From positions 1 to 64,000 of the forward strand of contig CAJFUA010000002.1 of assembly GCA_904420085.1 (NCBI GenBank): DNA of 64,000 nt, written 5' to 3'. How positions within the stretch are numbered: the first letter of the stretch is position 1; the number at the start of each line of letters is the position of its first letter. Under the pieces are notes generated by a model, which was not told the DNA's origin, did no database searches, and was given only the letters and a program-made list of their open reading frames with translations. The translations under genes and the position numbers were made by a program. Below are positions 37,682 through 43,163 of the stretch, piece by piece. Origin of the DNA: an uncultured Eubacterium sp. (lineage in GTDB: Bacteria; Bacillota; Clostridia; Lachnospirales; Lachnospiraceae).

Positions 37682-37724
37682 AAAACACCTGAAAGGTTGT
37701 TAAAAAACTTTTCAGGTGTTTTAT
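37682..37724 (-). terminator. Terminator of secreted-protein/peptide cassette A
   Basis: aaacacctgaaaggtt...aacttttcaggtgttt hairpin just after the small peptide gene. Confidence 0.75.
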
Positions 37725-37747: not shown

Positions 37748-37888
37748 TTAGTAAAGTCCTGTCCAGCCGTTATCTTCATTTGCTGACTCACCTGTAAATG
37801 TATCAAGGATGCTAGGACTTGTTGTGATCACGTCTTTCGTGTCAAATTCCACCACTTCAGCCTGTGGGCTGTTATAAAATTTCTTCAT
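37748..37888 (-). CDS. 46-aa peptide, cassette A
   Basis: MKKFYNSPQAEVVEFDTKDVITTSPSILDTFTGESANEDNGWTGLY; GGAGG 5 nt before ATG, starts 10 nt after the upstream gene stop. Confidence 0.8.
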   Translation of the reverse strand: MKKFYNSPQAEVVEFDTKDVITTSPSILDTFTGESANEDNGWTGLY

Positions 37889-37898
37889 GCTAACCTCC

Positions 37899-40367
37899 TT
37901 ATTTGATAAATGAATCAATGGTTGACTGATACTCTTCCGCAATTCCTATATAGCCTGCAGCTTTTACTGCTGATGCTACCTGGCTGATGCTTCTTACCGG
38001 TCCCATACTTGAGTAAACCGTTACGGCATCTCCGTTTTCATAGTTGATGGTCACATAAGCTCTTGCAGTAAAGTTTCTGATGTAGTTTGACTCTACTACA
38101 TCACAGATGGAACCACAGTATGTTCCGACAGTGTCCTGATACCAGCCGCTGTTTACAACGTCCAGTTTTGTGTAATCACTGGTAAGGGTTAAGTCTGTTC
38201 CTTTTGCCTCGTAAATATCGTTGGCTGTAATCAGTGTTCCTTCTGTGATGGCATTAGATGCCACTGCATCCATGTTGTCAGATAAAACTGTTGACTGGAA
38301 TCTGATTCCTGCTGTTCCGATATAACGGATTCCTGCGCCGTCTGCCATCGTCACGGACAATTCATTGACAGATGTAAATACCATGTCAGTTTCTACTGTA
38401 ACTTCTGAATTTGGTGCATACATCTTTCCGTCACAGAAGTATCCGTATGCAGCATTACCCAGTGTTACTTTATCACCTGACATCTCTGCAGGTTCTCCAT
38501 CTACTGTTACTGTATATGTTGGTGCAGGTTCCGGTCCGACTACTTTAATTACAAACGGAGCCACATTGCTTCCTACTGCCGTAATTGTAAAATATTTCGT
38601 TTCTCCCGGCTGTGCTTCAACCATTGCCTGGTTAATATATATACAGTCAGCACCGATATATACCTGTGTGTTTCTTGCATCTTTTGCATTGATGTACTCT
38701 GTATCTCCAATGATAACACTTGACGCATTACTTCCTGTTGTAACAAATCCAAACACGGCAAGGTCTTTAAATGCCGTATTCACTCTGTTCCAATCCGGAG
38801 TACCATTATTATAAAATCCTCTAAGTCCGGCATTTCCCATATTTTCAACAGAAGAAGCATATACTGTTGAACCGTTTACGGATGTTCCTTGCAACTGCGT
38901 CCACTCTGAAATGGTCTCCGGGTCAATAGAAGTATCTTCTACTTTTTTTGTAGCATCCGGTTCTAATGGTGCCTCCACTTTAATTGCAAAGGTTTTCATT
39001 GTACCATCATTCATTACGATTGTTACCACGTTCTGTTCTTCCGTAAATACTTCTGTGGATATTTCAACGCAGTCACCGTCATTGTTAAATACGATGGAAT
39101 GATTTTCATATTTATTTCCGTTTACCCAGATTTTTTCTACATTCGTCTGTTTAAAAACAAATGCAGATGCCTCTCCCAAAATACAATTTACACGGTCACC
39201 GTGGTAAGGCGCCTTGGAATGCGGTGCATAAATTCCCCACCAGACACCTGTATCCAAACCATGTGTTCCATTAATAGAGTAAGCATTTTCTAAAACAGAA
39301 CCTTCCTTTGCTTCCAATGTAACCCAGGAACTTGTATCAACTTTTGAAAGATCATGTTCCTCCGGTGCTTCTTCCGGAACTAATTGCACTTCTATCGTGT
39401 TGTTCGTAATCGTAATCTCTTCGCCTTCTTCATTCAATGCTTTAATGATTACCGTATATACCTGATTTTCCTCTACGGAAATGTCCAAACGTGTATCAGA
39501 TACCGGGGTTTCCGTGCCGTTAACAGATACTACATAACTTACTGCACCTGTAATGGCACTCCACGAAACAGTTGCAGTATCTGTTCCATAAACAACGGAA
39601 ACTGCCGCATCAAAGTTCTGGGAAACTTCCTTGAAAAAAGTAAATGTGTTATTGGTAACCTCAATCTCACTACCCTCTGCATCGTATACTTTGACAATAA
39701 AATTATAGGTCTTACCTTCTTCATATGAGAACTGCTCCCAGTCTCCGGCAGTTTTTGATACCAATACATCCTCTGTATCAGCATCAATGATGTCATAACG
39801 TGCAGCTCCTGCAATTGCATCCCATTTTAAGAAAAGCAGTTTATTTGCCTCATCAATTCTGTCCTGTCTCAAATTTAAGTTCGTATTGATTACCTTTTCA
39901 AATTCAACTGCATTTGATGTTCCCTGTGCTACTACCGTTCCATCTTCTGCAAGATACTGAACCACAATCACGAAATTTCCACCATCCGCAACGTTTAATG
40001 ATGAATCTTTTGTGTGCGTAACAGTATCTAATGCCGTTCTGTCATCTTTATTGTTAGCAGTTGTCCAACACCATCCGTTTGCTGCCGCTGCATAATGATT
40101 TTCGTCAAGGACAATCTCATCTGCTTTGCACAAATAAAACGCAAGTGTGGCATAATTTCCATCAGGATTGTTCTCTGTAATCTGTGTCCATCCTTCCGGT
40201 TTTGTCCAGTTGGCATCTAAACCATTACCATCAGCTCTTTTTGTAGCTGTAACTGTAACTTCCACTGGATCATCTGCCTTTGCCGTGGTGTGATACACTG
40301 TAACTGATGTAGCAATCATGGCAAGTGATAACACCACCGAAAGAACCTTTTTAAAAGTCTTATTCAT
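37899..40367 (-). CDS. Large secreted protein, cassette A (FN3-like modules plus conserved C-terminal domain)
   Basis: Signal peptide (MNKTFKKVLSVVLSLAMIATSVTVYHTTAKA); FN3-like segments (ANKLLFLKWDAIAGAARYDI; DTATVSWSAITGAVSYVVSVNG); C-terminal domain RYIGTAGIRFQS...STIDSFIK. Confidence 0.8.
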   Translation of the reverse strand: MNKTFKKVLSVVLSLAMIATSVTVYHTTAKADDPVEVTVTATKRADGNGLDANWTKPEGWTQITENNPDGNYATLAFYLCKADEIVLDENHYAAAANGWCWTTANNKDDRTALDTVTHTKDSSLNVADGGNFVIVVQYLAEDGTVVAQGTSNAVEFEKVINTNLNLRQDRIDEANKLLFLKWDAIAGAARYDIIDADTEDVLVSKTAGDWEQFSYEEGKTYNFIVKVYDAEGSEIEVTNNTFTFFKEVSQNFDAAVSVVYGTDTATVSWSAITGAVSYVVSVNGTETPVSDTRLDISVEENQVYTVIIKALNEEGEEITITNNTIEVQLVPEEAPEEHDLSKVDTSSWVTLEAKEGSVLENAYSINGTHGLDTGVWWGIYAPHSKAPYHGDRVNCILGEASAFVFKQTNVEKIWVNGNKYENHSIVFNNDGDCVEISTEVFTEEQNVVTIVMNDGTMKTFAIKVEAPLEPDATKKVEDTSIDPETISEWTQLQGTSVNGSTVYASSVENMGNAGLRGFYNNGTPDWNRVNTAFKDLAVFGFVTTGSNASSVIIGDTEYINAKDARNTQVYIGADCIYINQAMVEAQPGETKYFTITAVGSNVAPFVIKVVGPEPAPTYTVTVDGEPAEMSGDKVTLGNAAYGYFCDGKMYAPNSEVTVETDMVFTSVNELSVTMADGAGIRYIGTAGIRFQSTVLSDNMDAVASNAITEGTLITANDIYEAKGTDLTLTSDYTKLDVVNSGWYQDTVGTYCGSICDVVESNYIRNFTARAYVTINYENGDAVTVYSSMGPVRSISQVASAVKAAGYIGIAEEYQSTIDSFIK

Positions 40368-40573
40368 GTTAAATGTTCCTCCTTACTTTTTTTACATTTT
40401 TATGATAACATACCAATTTTTACAATACAATCACACCTGCTTATAAAACAAATTTTATTTTTTCATACCTATAAAAATCTTAAAAGTTCCTTTTTCCCTT
40501 TATTTATACTGTGTTTTTAGATGTTTTAATAAATAAAAATGATTTTATTGACTTTTTATTACCGATTTTTCAA

Positions 40574-40607
40574 CGAAAAAAGCACCCGGATTTTTCTTCC
40601 GGGTGCC
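40574..40607 (-). terminator. Terminator of secreted-protein/peptide cassette B
   Basis: gcacccgga-tttttct-tccgggtgc hairpin followed on the minus strand by TTTTTTC. Confidence 0.8.
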
Positions 40608-40660
40608 TGTCATTTGCCTTTAATTCAATTCATGTATATGCGACTATACATACCCACTTT

Positions 40661-40810
40661 TTAGTAAAGTCCTGTCCAGCCATTATCTTCGTTTGCTGAT
40701 TCACCTGTAAAATCATCAAGGATGCTAGGACTTGTTGTAATCACATCTTTTGTGTCAAATTCTACCACTTCAGCCTCAGGGCTGTTATAAAATTTCTTCA
40801 TGCTAACCTC
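40661..40810 (-). CDS. 46-aa peptide, cassette B
   Basis: MKKFYNSPEAEVVEFDTKDVITTSPSILDDFTGESANEDNGWTGLY; 44/46 residues identical to the cassette A peptide, same GGAGG spacing. Start inferred at the MKKFYN methionine (approximately 40801..40810). Confidence 0.8.
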   Translation of the reverse strand, partial: EVSMKKFYNSPEAEVVEFDTKDVITTSPSILDDFTGESANEDNGWTGLY

Positions 40811-40811
40811 C

Positions 40812-43163
40812 TTATTTGATAAATGAATCAATGGTTGACTTGTACTCTTCCGCAATTCCTGCATAGCCTGCTGCTTTTACTGCTGATGCTACCTGGCTGA
40901 TGCTTCTTACAGGTCCCATACTGGAGTAAACGGTTACGGCATCACTATTTTCATAGTTGATTGTCACATAAGCTCTTGCGGTAAAGTTTCTGATGTAGTT
41001 TGATTCTACCACGTCACAGATGGAACCACAGTATGTTCCCACTGTTTCATTATACCAGCCGCTGTTTGTCACATTTAATTTGGTATAATCACTGGTAAGA
41101 GTCAATTCTTCTCCCTTTGCCTCGTAAATATCGCTTGCCGTAATCAGTGTTCCTTCAGTAATGGCATCCGAAGCTACTGCATCCATGTTGTCAGATACAA
41201 TACTTGACTGGAATCTGATTCCGGCTGTTCCGATATAACGAATACCTGCTCCATTTGCCATAGAAACAGATAATTCTTTGACAGATGTAAATGCCATGTC
41301 TGCTTCTACAGTAACTTCTGAATTTGGTGCATACATCTTTCCGTCACAGAAATATCCGTATGCAGCATCTCCCAATGTTACTTTGTTGTCAACTACACTT
41401 ACTTCTTCATTATCTACAGTTACCTTATAATCTTCCTGTTCAGGTTCTTTTACAACAACACTGCCTGTTTCTACTTCAGGCTCTGTGCTGTATCCTTTTA
41501 AGCTGACCGCCTTAACTGTAACATTTGCCTCAGCGCTGGCTGTTGCATCAATATATCCCATAAGGATTCCATACAAAGCATTTCCATTAGCTGCTTTTGT
41601 AGCCTGGAATTTCAGAGTCACTTCTACTTCCTGCCCTGCTTTTACGCTGGTAACCAGTCCTCCAAACTCTGACCAGTCACCGCCGGCATTTCCGTCACTC
41701 TGGATTAACAGTCTGAAGTTTTTATCTACATCAGATGACACGGTATATTTTGCAACATACCACTTACCTTCCTCTAATGTGATTCCATTCTGTACTAACT
41801 GTGTTGAGTAAGTCTCTCCACCGGCCTTCTCTTCAACAACGCAACTCATAGAACCGTCACCATTATCTGTAGAACTGATCATGTTATCATGATTCCAGTT
41901 ATCTGCACCGATGAACTGTGTATTTAACAGAATTTCTGTATCATCTGGTACCGGTGCTGCTGTCGTAGTTTCCGGTTCTTCCTCAACCTTTAAAAGAATT
42001 GTAACAGACTCTGTTCCGTAGTGGTCATATACAACAACTGTATAATATTCCTCTGTCAAGTTTTCTACAAACAATCTGAGAAACGCACCGTCCGGCATAT
42101 TTGCTTCCTCTACGTCTACGCCGTTAATTACTACCCTGCTGAATGTTGCTGCTATACTAAGTGCTGTATAAACAGTATTTTTTCCGTCAATCATTTCAAT
42201 CTGTGGTTTTACAACTACCTTATCTGCATTATCATATATATTGTAGTAAATATTATTGCTGCCGGTTACAGGTGTCCACTCTGTAATCTCTGAAGGATCA
42301 ATTGTTTCCTCATCTGCTGATGTAGTCTCTTCCGGTGTTGTTTCCTCATCTGCTGATGTAGTCTCTTCCGGTGTTGTTTCCTCGTCTGAGGATGTAGTCT
42401 CTTCCGGTGTTGTTGTTTCTGACGCATCTACACCATTTGCATTGGCAATCTTAACTGTTGCTGTTCCACCTGCATATGTAATTACTACTTCATTCGTCTT
42501 TAATACAAGAGCTGACAGATATATAACCACGCCTGCTCCCTGAACTGCTGAACCGCCAGAAGTGTCGCCATTAATTGAAACTTCGCTGATTCCAGCAGGT
42601 ACAGTCATATAAATACCTAATTCAGTAGCAAATCCAGGCTGTTGAATATTAACGATAGAAGCTGTTGTGCTATCGTCATATGAATATCCCTGTCCAAGGT
42701 CAATCCAGTTAACAACCGAAGGATCCCTTGTTGTCGTCTCTCCTTGTGACTCAATCTTTAATGTTGCATTTCCAGTAAGTGTCTTCTCCGGATCTTCCTG
42801 AGATGTACCTGTGACAACAATAGAATATTCTCCTTCTCCTAAATCTGACACTTCTGACAACGGAATAAACATTCCATTCGCATTTTTACCATCAACTGCA
42901 ACGTCCTCTCCGTTTACAGTTGCTGTTATTGTGTCTGCATCAAGTGCTGTTCCCCATGCAAAATGAATTCTGGCACTATCAAAAATCCCCTGACATGTAA
43001 ACCCGACAATATCGGTATCGCCATCTGTTACAGTGTATATGATTCCATCTACCGTTGCTGAACCTGAAGCATTAACACTGCTTGTATTATATACCGTTAC
43101 CGAGCATACAACCATTGCAATCGCACTGACAATTGCAATCATTTTTTTGAAACGTCTGTTCAT
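40812..43163 (-). CDS. Large secreted protein, cassette B (CBM-like module, Thr/Glu-rich linker, same C-terminal domain)
   Basis: Signal peptide; TTPEETTSADEE repeats; CBM4/9-like segment ILLNTQFIGADNWNHDN...AKYTVSSDVDKNFRLLIQSDG; C-terminal about 200 aa closely matching cassette A. Confidence 0.8.
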   Translation of the reverse strand: MNRRFKKMIAIVSAIAMVVCSVTVYNTSSVNASGSATVDGIIYTVTDGDTDIVGFTCQGIFDSARIHFAWGTALDADTITATVNGEDVAVDGKNANGMFIPLSEVSDLGEGEYSIVVTGTSQEDPEKTLTGNATLKIESQGETTTRDPSVVNWIDLGQGYSYDDSTTASIVNIQQPGFATELGIYMTVPAGISEVSINGDTSGGSAVQGAGVVIYLSALVLKTNEVVITYAGGTATVKIANANGVDASETTTPEETTSSDEETTPEETTSADEETTPEETTSADEETIDPSEITEWTPVTGSNNIYYNIYDNADKVVVKPQIEMIDGKNTVYTALSIAATFSRVVINGVDVEEANMPDGAFLRLFVENLTEEYYTVVVYDHYGTESVTILLKVEEEPETTTAAPVPDDTEILLNTQFIGADNWNHDNMISSTDNGDGSMSCVVEEKAGGETYSTQLVQNGITLEEGKWYVAKYTVSSDVDKNFRLLIQSDGNAGGDWSEFGGLVTSVKAGQEVEVTLKFQATKAANGNALYGILMGYIDATASAEANVTVKAVSLKGYSTEPEVETGSVVVKEPEQEDYKVTVDNEEVSVVDNKVTLGDAAYGYFCDGKMYAPNSEVTVEADMAFTSVKELSVSMANGAGIRYIGTAGIRFQSSIVSDNMDAVASDAITEGTLITASDIYEAKGEELTLTSDYTKLNVTNSGWYNETVGTYCGSICDVVESNYIRNFTARAYVTINYENSDAVTVYSSMGPVRSISQVASAVKAAGYAGIAEEYKSTIDSFIK
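42305..42412. repeat. Three tandem 36-bp repeats inside the cassette B coding sequence
   Basis: tttcctcatctgctgatgtagtctcttccggtgttg at 42305, 42341 and 42377 (third with 2 changes); encodes a TTPEETTS(A/S)DEE linker. Confidence 0.95.

Follow-up and report, generated by a model that had tools for sequence, protein, structure and literature searches.

LPP-like peptide genes paired with large secreted proteins in a Lachnospiraceae genus, and a possible role for their shared tail in surface docking

We analyzed a 64,000-nucleotide stretch of DNA (positions 1–64,000 of contig CAJFUA010000002.1, hereafter the window) from an uncultured Eubacterium sp. (GCA_904420085.1, an assembly of 2.57 Mb in 156 contigs, here labelled G000), in which two large secreted protein genes are each followed by a gene for a 46-aa peptide. 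In this genus, genes for such peptides, which resemble the linear polyphosphorylated peptides (LPPs; Popov et al., Nat Commun 2026, PMC13381572), stand beside those of large secreted proteins, and the C-terminal tail ties the peptides to membrane-anchored partners; this gives them a testable role in surface docking. Our overall reading, to which we assign a probability of about 0.45, is that an LPP-like peptide is made in trans and that its tail is an envelope ligand for the C-terminal domain (CTD) of the large proteins. The computed support for this consists of the gene linkage, the relationship of the leader, the presence of candidate modification modules, the sharing of the tail, and the co-occurrence of the CTD with an anchored protein that bears the same tail (the stalk).

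Peptide-CTD gene pairs in the window and across the genus

Both cassettes lie on the minus strand and consist of a large signal-peptide gene with a CTD (CTD-I), followed by a 46-aa open reading frame (Table 1). The original prediction, made from the sequence of the window, had described duplicated cassettes with a gap of ~10 nt and a GGAGG, and this was confirmed; the peptide ATG is 10 nt past the large-ORF stop in both, with GGAGG directly after the stop. It had also placed a terminator after each peptide, and hairpins were indeed seen, by scan after copy 2 and by eye after copy 1. The N-terminal and middle parts of the large proteins do differ as it had claimed, with a Thr-rich linker and a CBM_4_9-like module (E 3e-6) in protein 2, and the identity of the peptides at 44/46 positions and their lack of a signal sequence were likewise verified.

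Table 1. Positions of the cassette features within the window.
Feature	Position	Strand	Description and basis
Large secreted protein 2, 783 aa	40812..43163	-	Signal peptide, Thr-rich linker, CBM_4_9-like module (E 3e-6), CTD; ORF and CTD match
CTD-I of protein 2, Ig-like beta-sandwich domain	40815..41387	-	89% identity to the other copy
GGAGG (Shine-Dalgarno) of peptide 2, directly after the large-ORF stop	40807..40811	-	Sequence
Peptide 2, 46 aa	40661..40801	-	Leader YxxP (Y5, P8); DVITTS, in which S24 is invariant; tail TGESANEDNGWTGLY at the C-terminus
Intrinsic terminator-like hairpin 3' of peptide 2	40580..40608	-	Hairpin scan
Large secreted protein 1, 822 aa	37899..40367	-	Signal peptide, N-terminal and middle parts differ from copy 2, CTD; ORF and CTD match
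CTD-I of protein 1	37902..38477	-	CTD match, CTD profile
Shine-Dalgarno GGAGG of peptide 1	37894..37898	-	Sequence
Peptide 1, 46 aa	37748..37888	-	44/46 identical to peptide 2; leader and tail as in peptide 2
Hairpin then T-run 3' of peptide 1 (AACACCTGAAA...TTTCAGGTGTTTTT)	37683..37720	-	By eye; absent from hairpin scan output

The two peptide genes differ at 10 codons, 8 of them synonymous and 2 nonsynonymous, so the window copies are recent duplicates and the near-identity of their products alone proves little about selection. The peptide had no match in Pfam or NCBIfam. Both large proteins end in the CTD, with neither an LPXTG motif nor a terminal transmembrane (TM) segment, and a domain search reported no cohesin, dockerin or SLH families for them. 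An AF2 model of the CTD-I family (pLDDT 91) matched only generic Ig-like chains when compared with the PDB (best E 2.7e-3), and on this basis the possibility that CTD-I is a known enzyme was rejected.

Within the window genome there are four peptides and five CTDs; all four peptides are encoded 10–13 nt after a CTD gene, and one of the five CTD genes (contig C71) is without a peptide. Co-occurrence of peptide and CTD had been put forward as a check on their pairing. When 23 genomes of the genus were searched independently with a peptide query and a CTD profile, 38 of the 62 CTD matches had a same-strand peptide match ≤200 nt downstream, where 0.01 would be expected. On this genus-wide linkage, chance or plain duplication was rejected as the source of the pairing. 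The 46-aa peptide is almost certainly translated and conserved. CTD genes with no downstream peptide lie in part at contig ends and in part are true orphans (G000:C71, G012:C22, G003:C9 and G020:C1). Orphan CTD-I proteins were recorded as L088/L009 for G000:C71, where the CTD copy sits just 5' of sequence reading as tRNA genes, and as L177 for G020:C1.

Outside the genus CTD-I is rare, being present in only two of the other sampled genera (298 genera sampled). In one of these two (G073:C55), a CTD-like stretch also has a family peptide less than 30 nt behind it, and a contig scan with the CTD yielded no more than three loci, all from MAGs labelled Eubacteriaceae or Eubacterium.

The peptide family and its candidate modification enzymes

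In the wider Lachnospiraceae family the common part of the peptides is the N-terminal half, YxxPExExxxF[DE]xxD[VI]ITTS. A profile of this leader half gave matches, some of them weak, in 19 other genera among the 298 sampled. There it comes after different secreted proteins, and because it recurs in this way the peptide is not confined to CTD-I. The original interpretation is upheld in part: its central claim, a functional pair, is favored by gene linkage and by co-occurrence of the CTD with the stalk (see below). Widespread homologues with no association to this CTD, which had been named as the outcome that would count against the pair, were found for the leader half; the GW tail and CTD-I, in contrast, turned up nearly exclusively in the genus of the window.

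A leader set of 52 sequences was collected by motif without requiring the Ser, and three of these were unrelated ORFs as judged by spacing and sequence. In all 49 true family members, a sample weighted to the window genus, position Tyr+14 is Asp and position Tyr+19 is Ser. LPP precursors are 35–200 aa long and have the leader consensus YxxPxVLxHQxIxFETxxS with a phosphorylated Ser at Tyr+18; cleavage occurs after the T, three residues before this Ser, and an S3T variant was not phosphorylated (PMC13381572). That paper, the only one found on LPPs, gives their biological role as unknown. Compared with this consensus, the family has the YxxP, F-[DE]-T in many members (the T is not invariant) and the invariant Ser; HQ is absent, and the distance from Tyr to Ser is longer by one residue. 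Given the missing HQ and the shifted Ser, we term the family LPP-like, short of proven LPP.

Family members were also found inside LPP-type gene clusters, both in the window genus (L065–L067, L070–L072) and in five other Lachnospiraceae genera (L252, L256, L268, L274, L278). These clusters encode HprK-like proteins, PqqD-like RREs, S26-like peptidases, and NTP transferases or ABC exporters, in combinations that vary. We consider it likely that the window peptides are RiPP precursors of LPP type.

Stand-alone PqqD-like RREs (PF05402) occur in the window genome on contigs C1 and C72, in trans to the window. The C72 module comprises NTP_transf_5 (PF14907, E 1e-39), HprK-like, RRE and S26-like genes and an ABC exporter, beside capsule-type genes and regulators; the C1 module has NTase-like, HprK-like, RRE and S26-like genes and no adjacent exporter. 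The earlier statement that no RiPP maturase is visible nearby therefore holds within the window but not beyond it, as these modules are present and relatives of the peptide are encoded inside such modules. The HprK-like proteins had no Pfam match, but they have a P-loop, and the fold predicted for them with AF2 (pLDDT 91) matches HPr kinase (HprK/P) and PEPCK with E of about 1e-5 to 1e-6. In the S26-like family the catalytic Ser/His/Asp are conserved in SMxP, HR and GDN, motifs known from signal peptidases, and matches to signal peptidase I models were sub-threshold. No precursor gene lies beside the C1 or the C72 module, which counts against our overall reading, and action in trans is presumed.

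In a tree of the genus RREs, clade A was nearly universal, and clade C mostly accompanied, in cis, the peptides of a second system (see below). Clade B, the C1 type, was found in 15/20 CTD genomes, or 17/20 counting G010 and G022, whose placement is uncertain. It was missing in G018, G019 and G021, all of which are without the CTD, and was unseen in three CTD genomes, G005 (90% complete), G016 and G017 (both incomplete). The association of clade B with the CTD gave a Fisher p of 0.011 at 17/20 and of about 0.03 at 15/20. With this patchy distribution, naming the module that serves the window peptides is a guess, in which we favor C1. The orphan HprK-like/RRE/S26 module on C1 adjoins a CRISPR array (L062, 586–6790) with genes that read by eye as Csn2, Cas2, Cas1 and Cas9, a type II-A locus by gene order.

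The shared tail, the stalk and a second system

The last dozen residues of the peptide, with the tail ANExxGWTGLY, recur at the ends of the stalk and of a secreted L,D-transpeptidase (YkuD), which ends TGESANETTGWTDFH. A search with the peptide only brought up all three L,D-transpeptidase ends weakly (E 0.09–0.35), and a tail profile that included the YkuD ends and excluded the stalks recovered the stalk ends. The stalk is 150–190 aa long, with an N-terminal TM segment or lipobox and a low-complexity linker, and in the window genome it ends NSDDGWTDFY. As circularity was to be avoided, we chose an exact-pattern DNA scan; GW[ST][DG][FL][YHF]-stop matched 39 times across the 23 genomes, and the reversed pattern once. 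Apart from two of the 39 that were left unread (G007:C192 and G009:C99), all matches proved to be C-termini of peptides, stalks or YkuD proteins. The stalk and YkuD tails are predicted to lie outside the membrane, and it is very likely that the tail of the peptide is functionally shared with exported proteins.

The stalk gene occupies a single slot, flanked by asd on one side and by a gene for a membrane protein on the other. It was present in 18/18 CTD-I genomes in which the slot was recovered, and the slot was empty in G018, G019 and G021, which have no CTD (Fisher p 0.00075 over 21 genomes, with three negatives only and shared ancestry ignored). In an Asd tree, G019 fell near the window genome and apart from G018 and G021 (two separate lineages), so that the stalk/CTD pattern requires two or more losses, or else several gains. 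The conserved membrane protein (KVFGFRSG; L172, 8693–9196 of G000:C65, with orthologues L214–L234) preceded the stalk slot and asd in every case, and it is kept also in genomes without the stalk.

A second system with the same layout, but with different tails and another C-terminal domain (CTD-II), was found in G018, G021 and several further genomes. Several of the CTD-II operons also encode an anchored protein whose end resembles the tail of the peptide, the matched ends (anchored protein/peptide) being YGDLIG/YGELFG, FGPLIG/FGPLIDG, WGPLE/WGPLEDGN and GEDNTEPDWNDW/GEDNTDEGYIDW. Peptide and stalk tails co-vary: when those from eight loci were permuted, the score of the cognate pairing was reached by 4/40320 permutations, and by 1/720 within the genus. 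These values are indicative, as the loci were picked by inspection rather than blind and have some dependence on one another. An IRF motif had at first hinted that CTD-I and CTD-II are homologous, but this was dropped after a profile comparison found no similarity between them. The second system therefore supports the layout and not a common receptor fold.

Two further loci of this kind were noted. A secreted protein of G005 with a Pro/Thr linker (L179, 8904–9479 of G005:C69) has the C-terminus GDGDDIGDLINKP, which resembles the tail GDGDDIGDLTGNN found on the second operon peptide, also in G005. G034, from another genus, encodes a secreted protein, a peptide and a very short TM stalk of 74–77 aa (L094, L112/L256); these short stalks end GWGPIK or GWGPINLYD, and the neighborhood is LPP-like in one case.

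A docking model, its rivals and known systems

Our model takes the 46-aa ORFs as putative RiPP precursors of or near the LPP type, encoded away from their enzymes, for which the orphan C1 module (NTase-like, HprK-like, RRE and S26) would be the likely machinery. The stand-alone PqqD-like RRE would bind the leader (about residues 1–22) through its YxxP, the HprK-like kinase would phosphorylate the invariant Ser24 as its likely target, and the SipW-like S26 peptidase would cut off the leader at a site that we place by inference. The freed core would then be exported by a presumed route. Function of the core may sit in its C-terminal tail, ANExxGWTGLY, which would be displayed outside the membrane by the TM- or lipid-anchored stalk, the secreted L,D-transpeptidase and the processed peptide. 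Since the large secreted proteins end in the CTD with no LPXTG or terminal TM segment, another hold is needed, and they may be kept at the surface by binding of the CTD to the tail; the candidate ligand of CTD-I is the tail peptide FTGESANEDNGWTGLY. This is the most economical account that brings the observations together, but we propose only tentatively that the CTD is the tail receptor. Rather more speculative is the generalization to a new form of Lachnospiraceae surface display, in which a RiPP tail, carried also on stalks, docks the Ig-like CTD of diverse secreted proteins.

The main rival to docking by the CTD is recognition of the tail by a different surface factor, an enzyme or receptor which would act on the stalk and the L,D-transpeptidase too, leaving the CTD protein as co-expressed cargo or partner. 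That the L,D-transpeptidase carries the tail yet is no CTD protein speaks for such a factor, as do the CTD genes that have no peptide and the presence of the tail in three protein classes. However, the stalk tracks the CTD exactly in the 21 genomes scorable for both, and no further gene with such a profile was found among the loci inspected; we judge this reading unlikely, if the strongest of the competitors.

Linkage to large secreted proteins that persists across genera, tails that are strongly kept in the genus rather than diversifying, and the fixed slot of the stalk beside the housekeeping gene asd all argue against the peptide being a secreted RiPP signal or antimicrobial, next to the CTD through shared regulation only and with the stalk as a decoy for immunity or sensing. 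It is improbable on these grounds, even though LPP precursors are RiPPs with no known role, a single leader family here carries variable cores, and an anchored protein with the tail of the peptide could serve as a decoy. We give least credence to an unprocessed peptide that serves the CTD protein as a small cytoplasmic chaperone or regulator, regulation of the CTD having been among the roles considered in the original prediction. Its start 10 nt past the CTD-gene stop and its lack of a signal peptide would suit this role, but leader relatives sit inside LPP-type clusters, YxxP and Ser are arranged in keeping with the LPP leader rules, and the tail is common to proteins predicted to act outside the membrane.

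If docking of the CTD to the tail is correct, it would account for the surface retention of gut-bacterial secreted proteins without LPXTG or a terminal membrane segment. It would also mean that RiPPs, beyond being secreted metabolites, can be structural components of the envelope, and would provide a first function for LPP-type RiPPs.

In layout only, the large proteins are analogous to those of cohesin-dockerin and SLH docking, being modular secreted proteins with varied N-terminal parts and one C-terminal domain; the proposed ligand here differs in being a short linear C-terminal tail. Paeninodin-like lasso peptides also combine an RRE and a YxxP or WxxP leader with an HprK-like kinase, an NTP transferase and an ABC exporter. 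We nevertheless rejected filing the window peptides with them, as the B2 lasso leader peptidase (PF13471) gave 0 matches in the window genome; in addition, the leader has Tyr rather than Trp, and no asparagine-synthetase-like macrolactam cyclase was noticed in the neighborhoods of the C1 and C72 modules.

The closest likeness is to LPPs. Both share a discrete RRE, an HprK-like kinase, a SipW-like S26 peptidase (Ser/His/Asp) and a capsule-type neighborhood, and in both no macrolactam cyclase was noticed in the loci. The NTP transferase and MsbA-like exporter of LPP clusters have counterparts together at C72, and C1 has an NTase-like gene with no exporter beside it. The precursors are alike in being short and in having a leader with YxxP, often F-[DE]-T, and C-termini that vary behind a Ser that is strictly conserved. 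Unlike LPP precursors, those of the window genome are encoded in trans, each gene lying downstream of one for a large secreted CTD protein, and the window peptides are without HQ and have one extra residue between Tyr and Ser. Their core ends in a tail common to membrane-anchored proteins, whereas such partner proteins do not figure in the LPP paper so far as consulted. Among open-access papers, we found none that links LPP-type peptides with secreted or surface proteins or with shared tails. The LPP class is already known, and our analysis suggests that its tie to surface proteins through a common tail is new.
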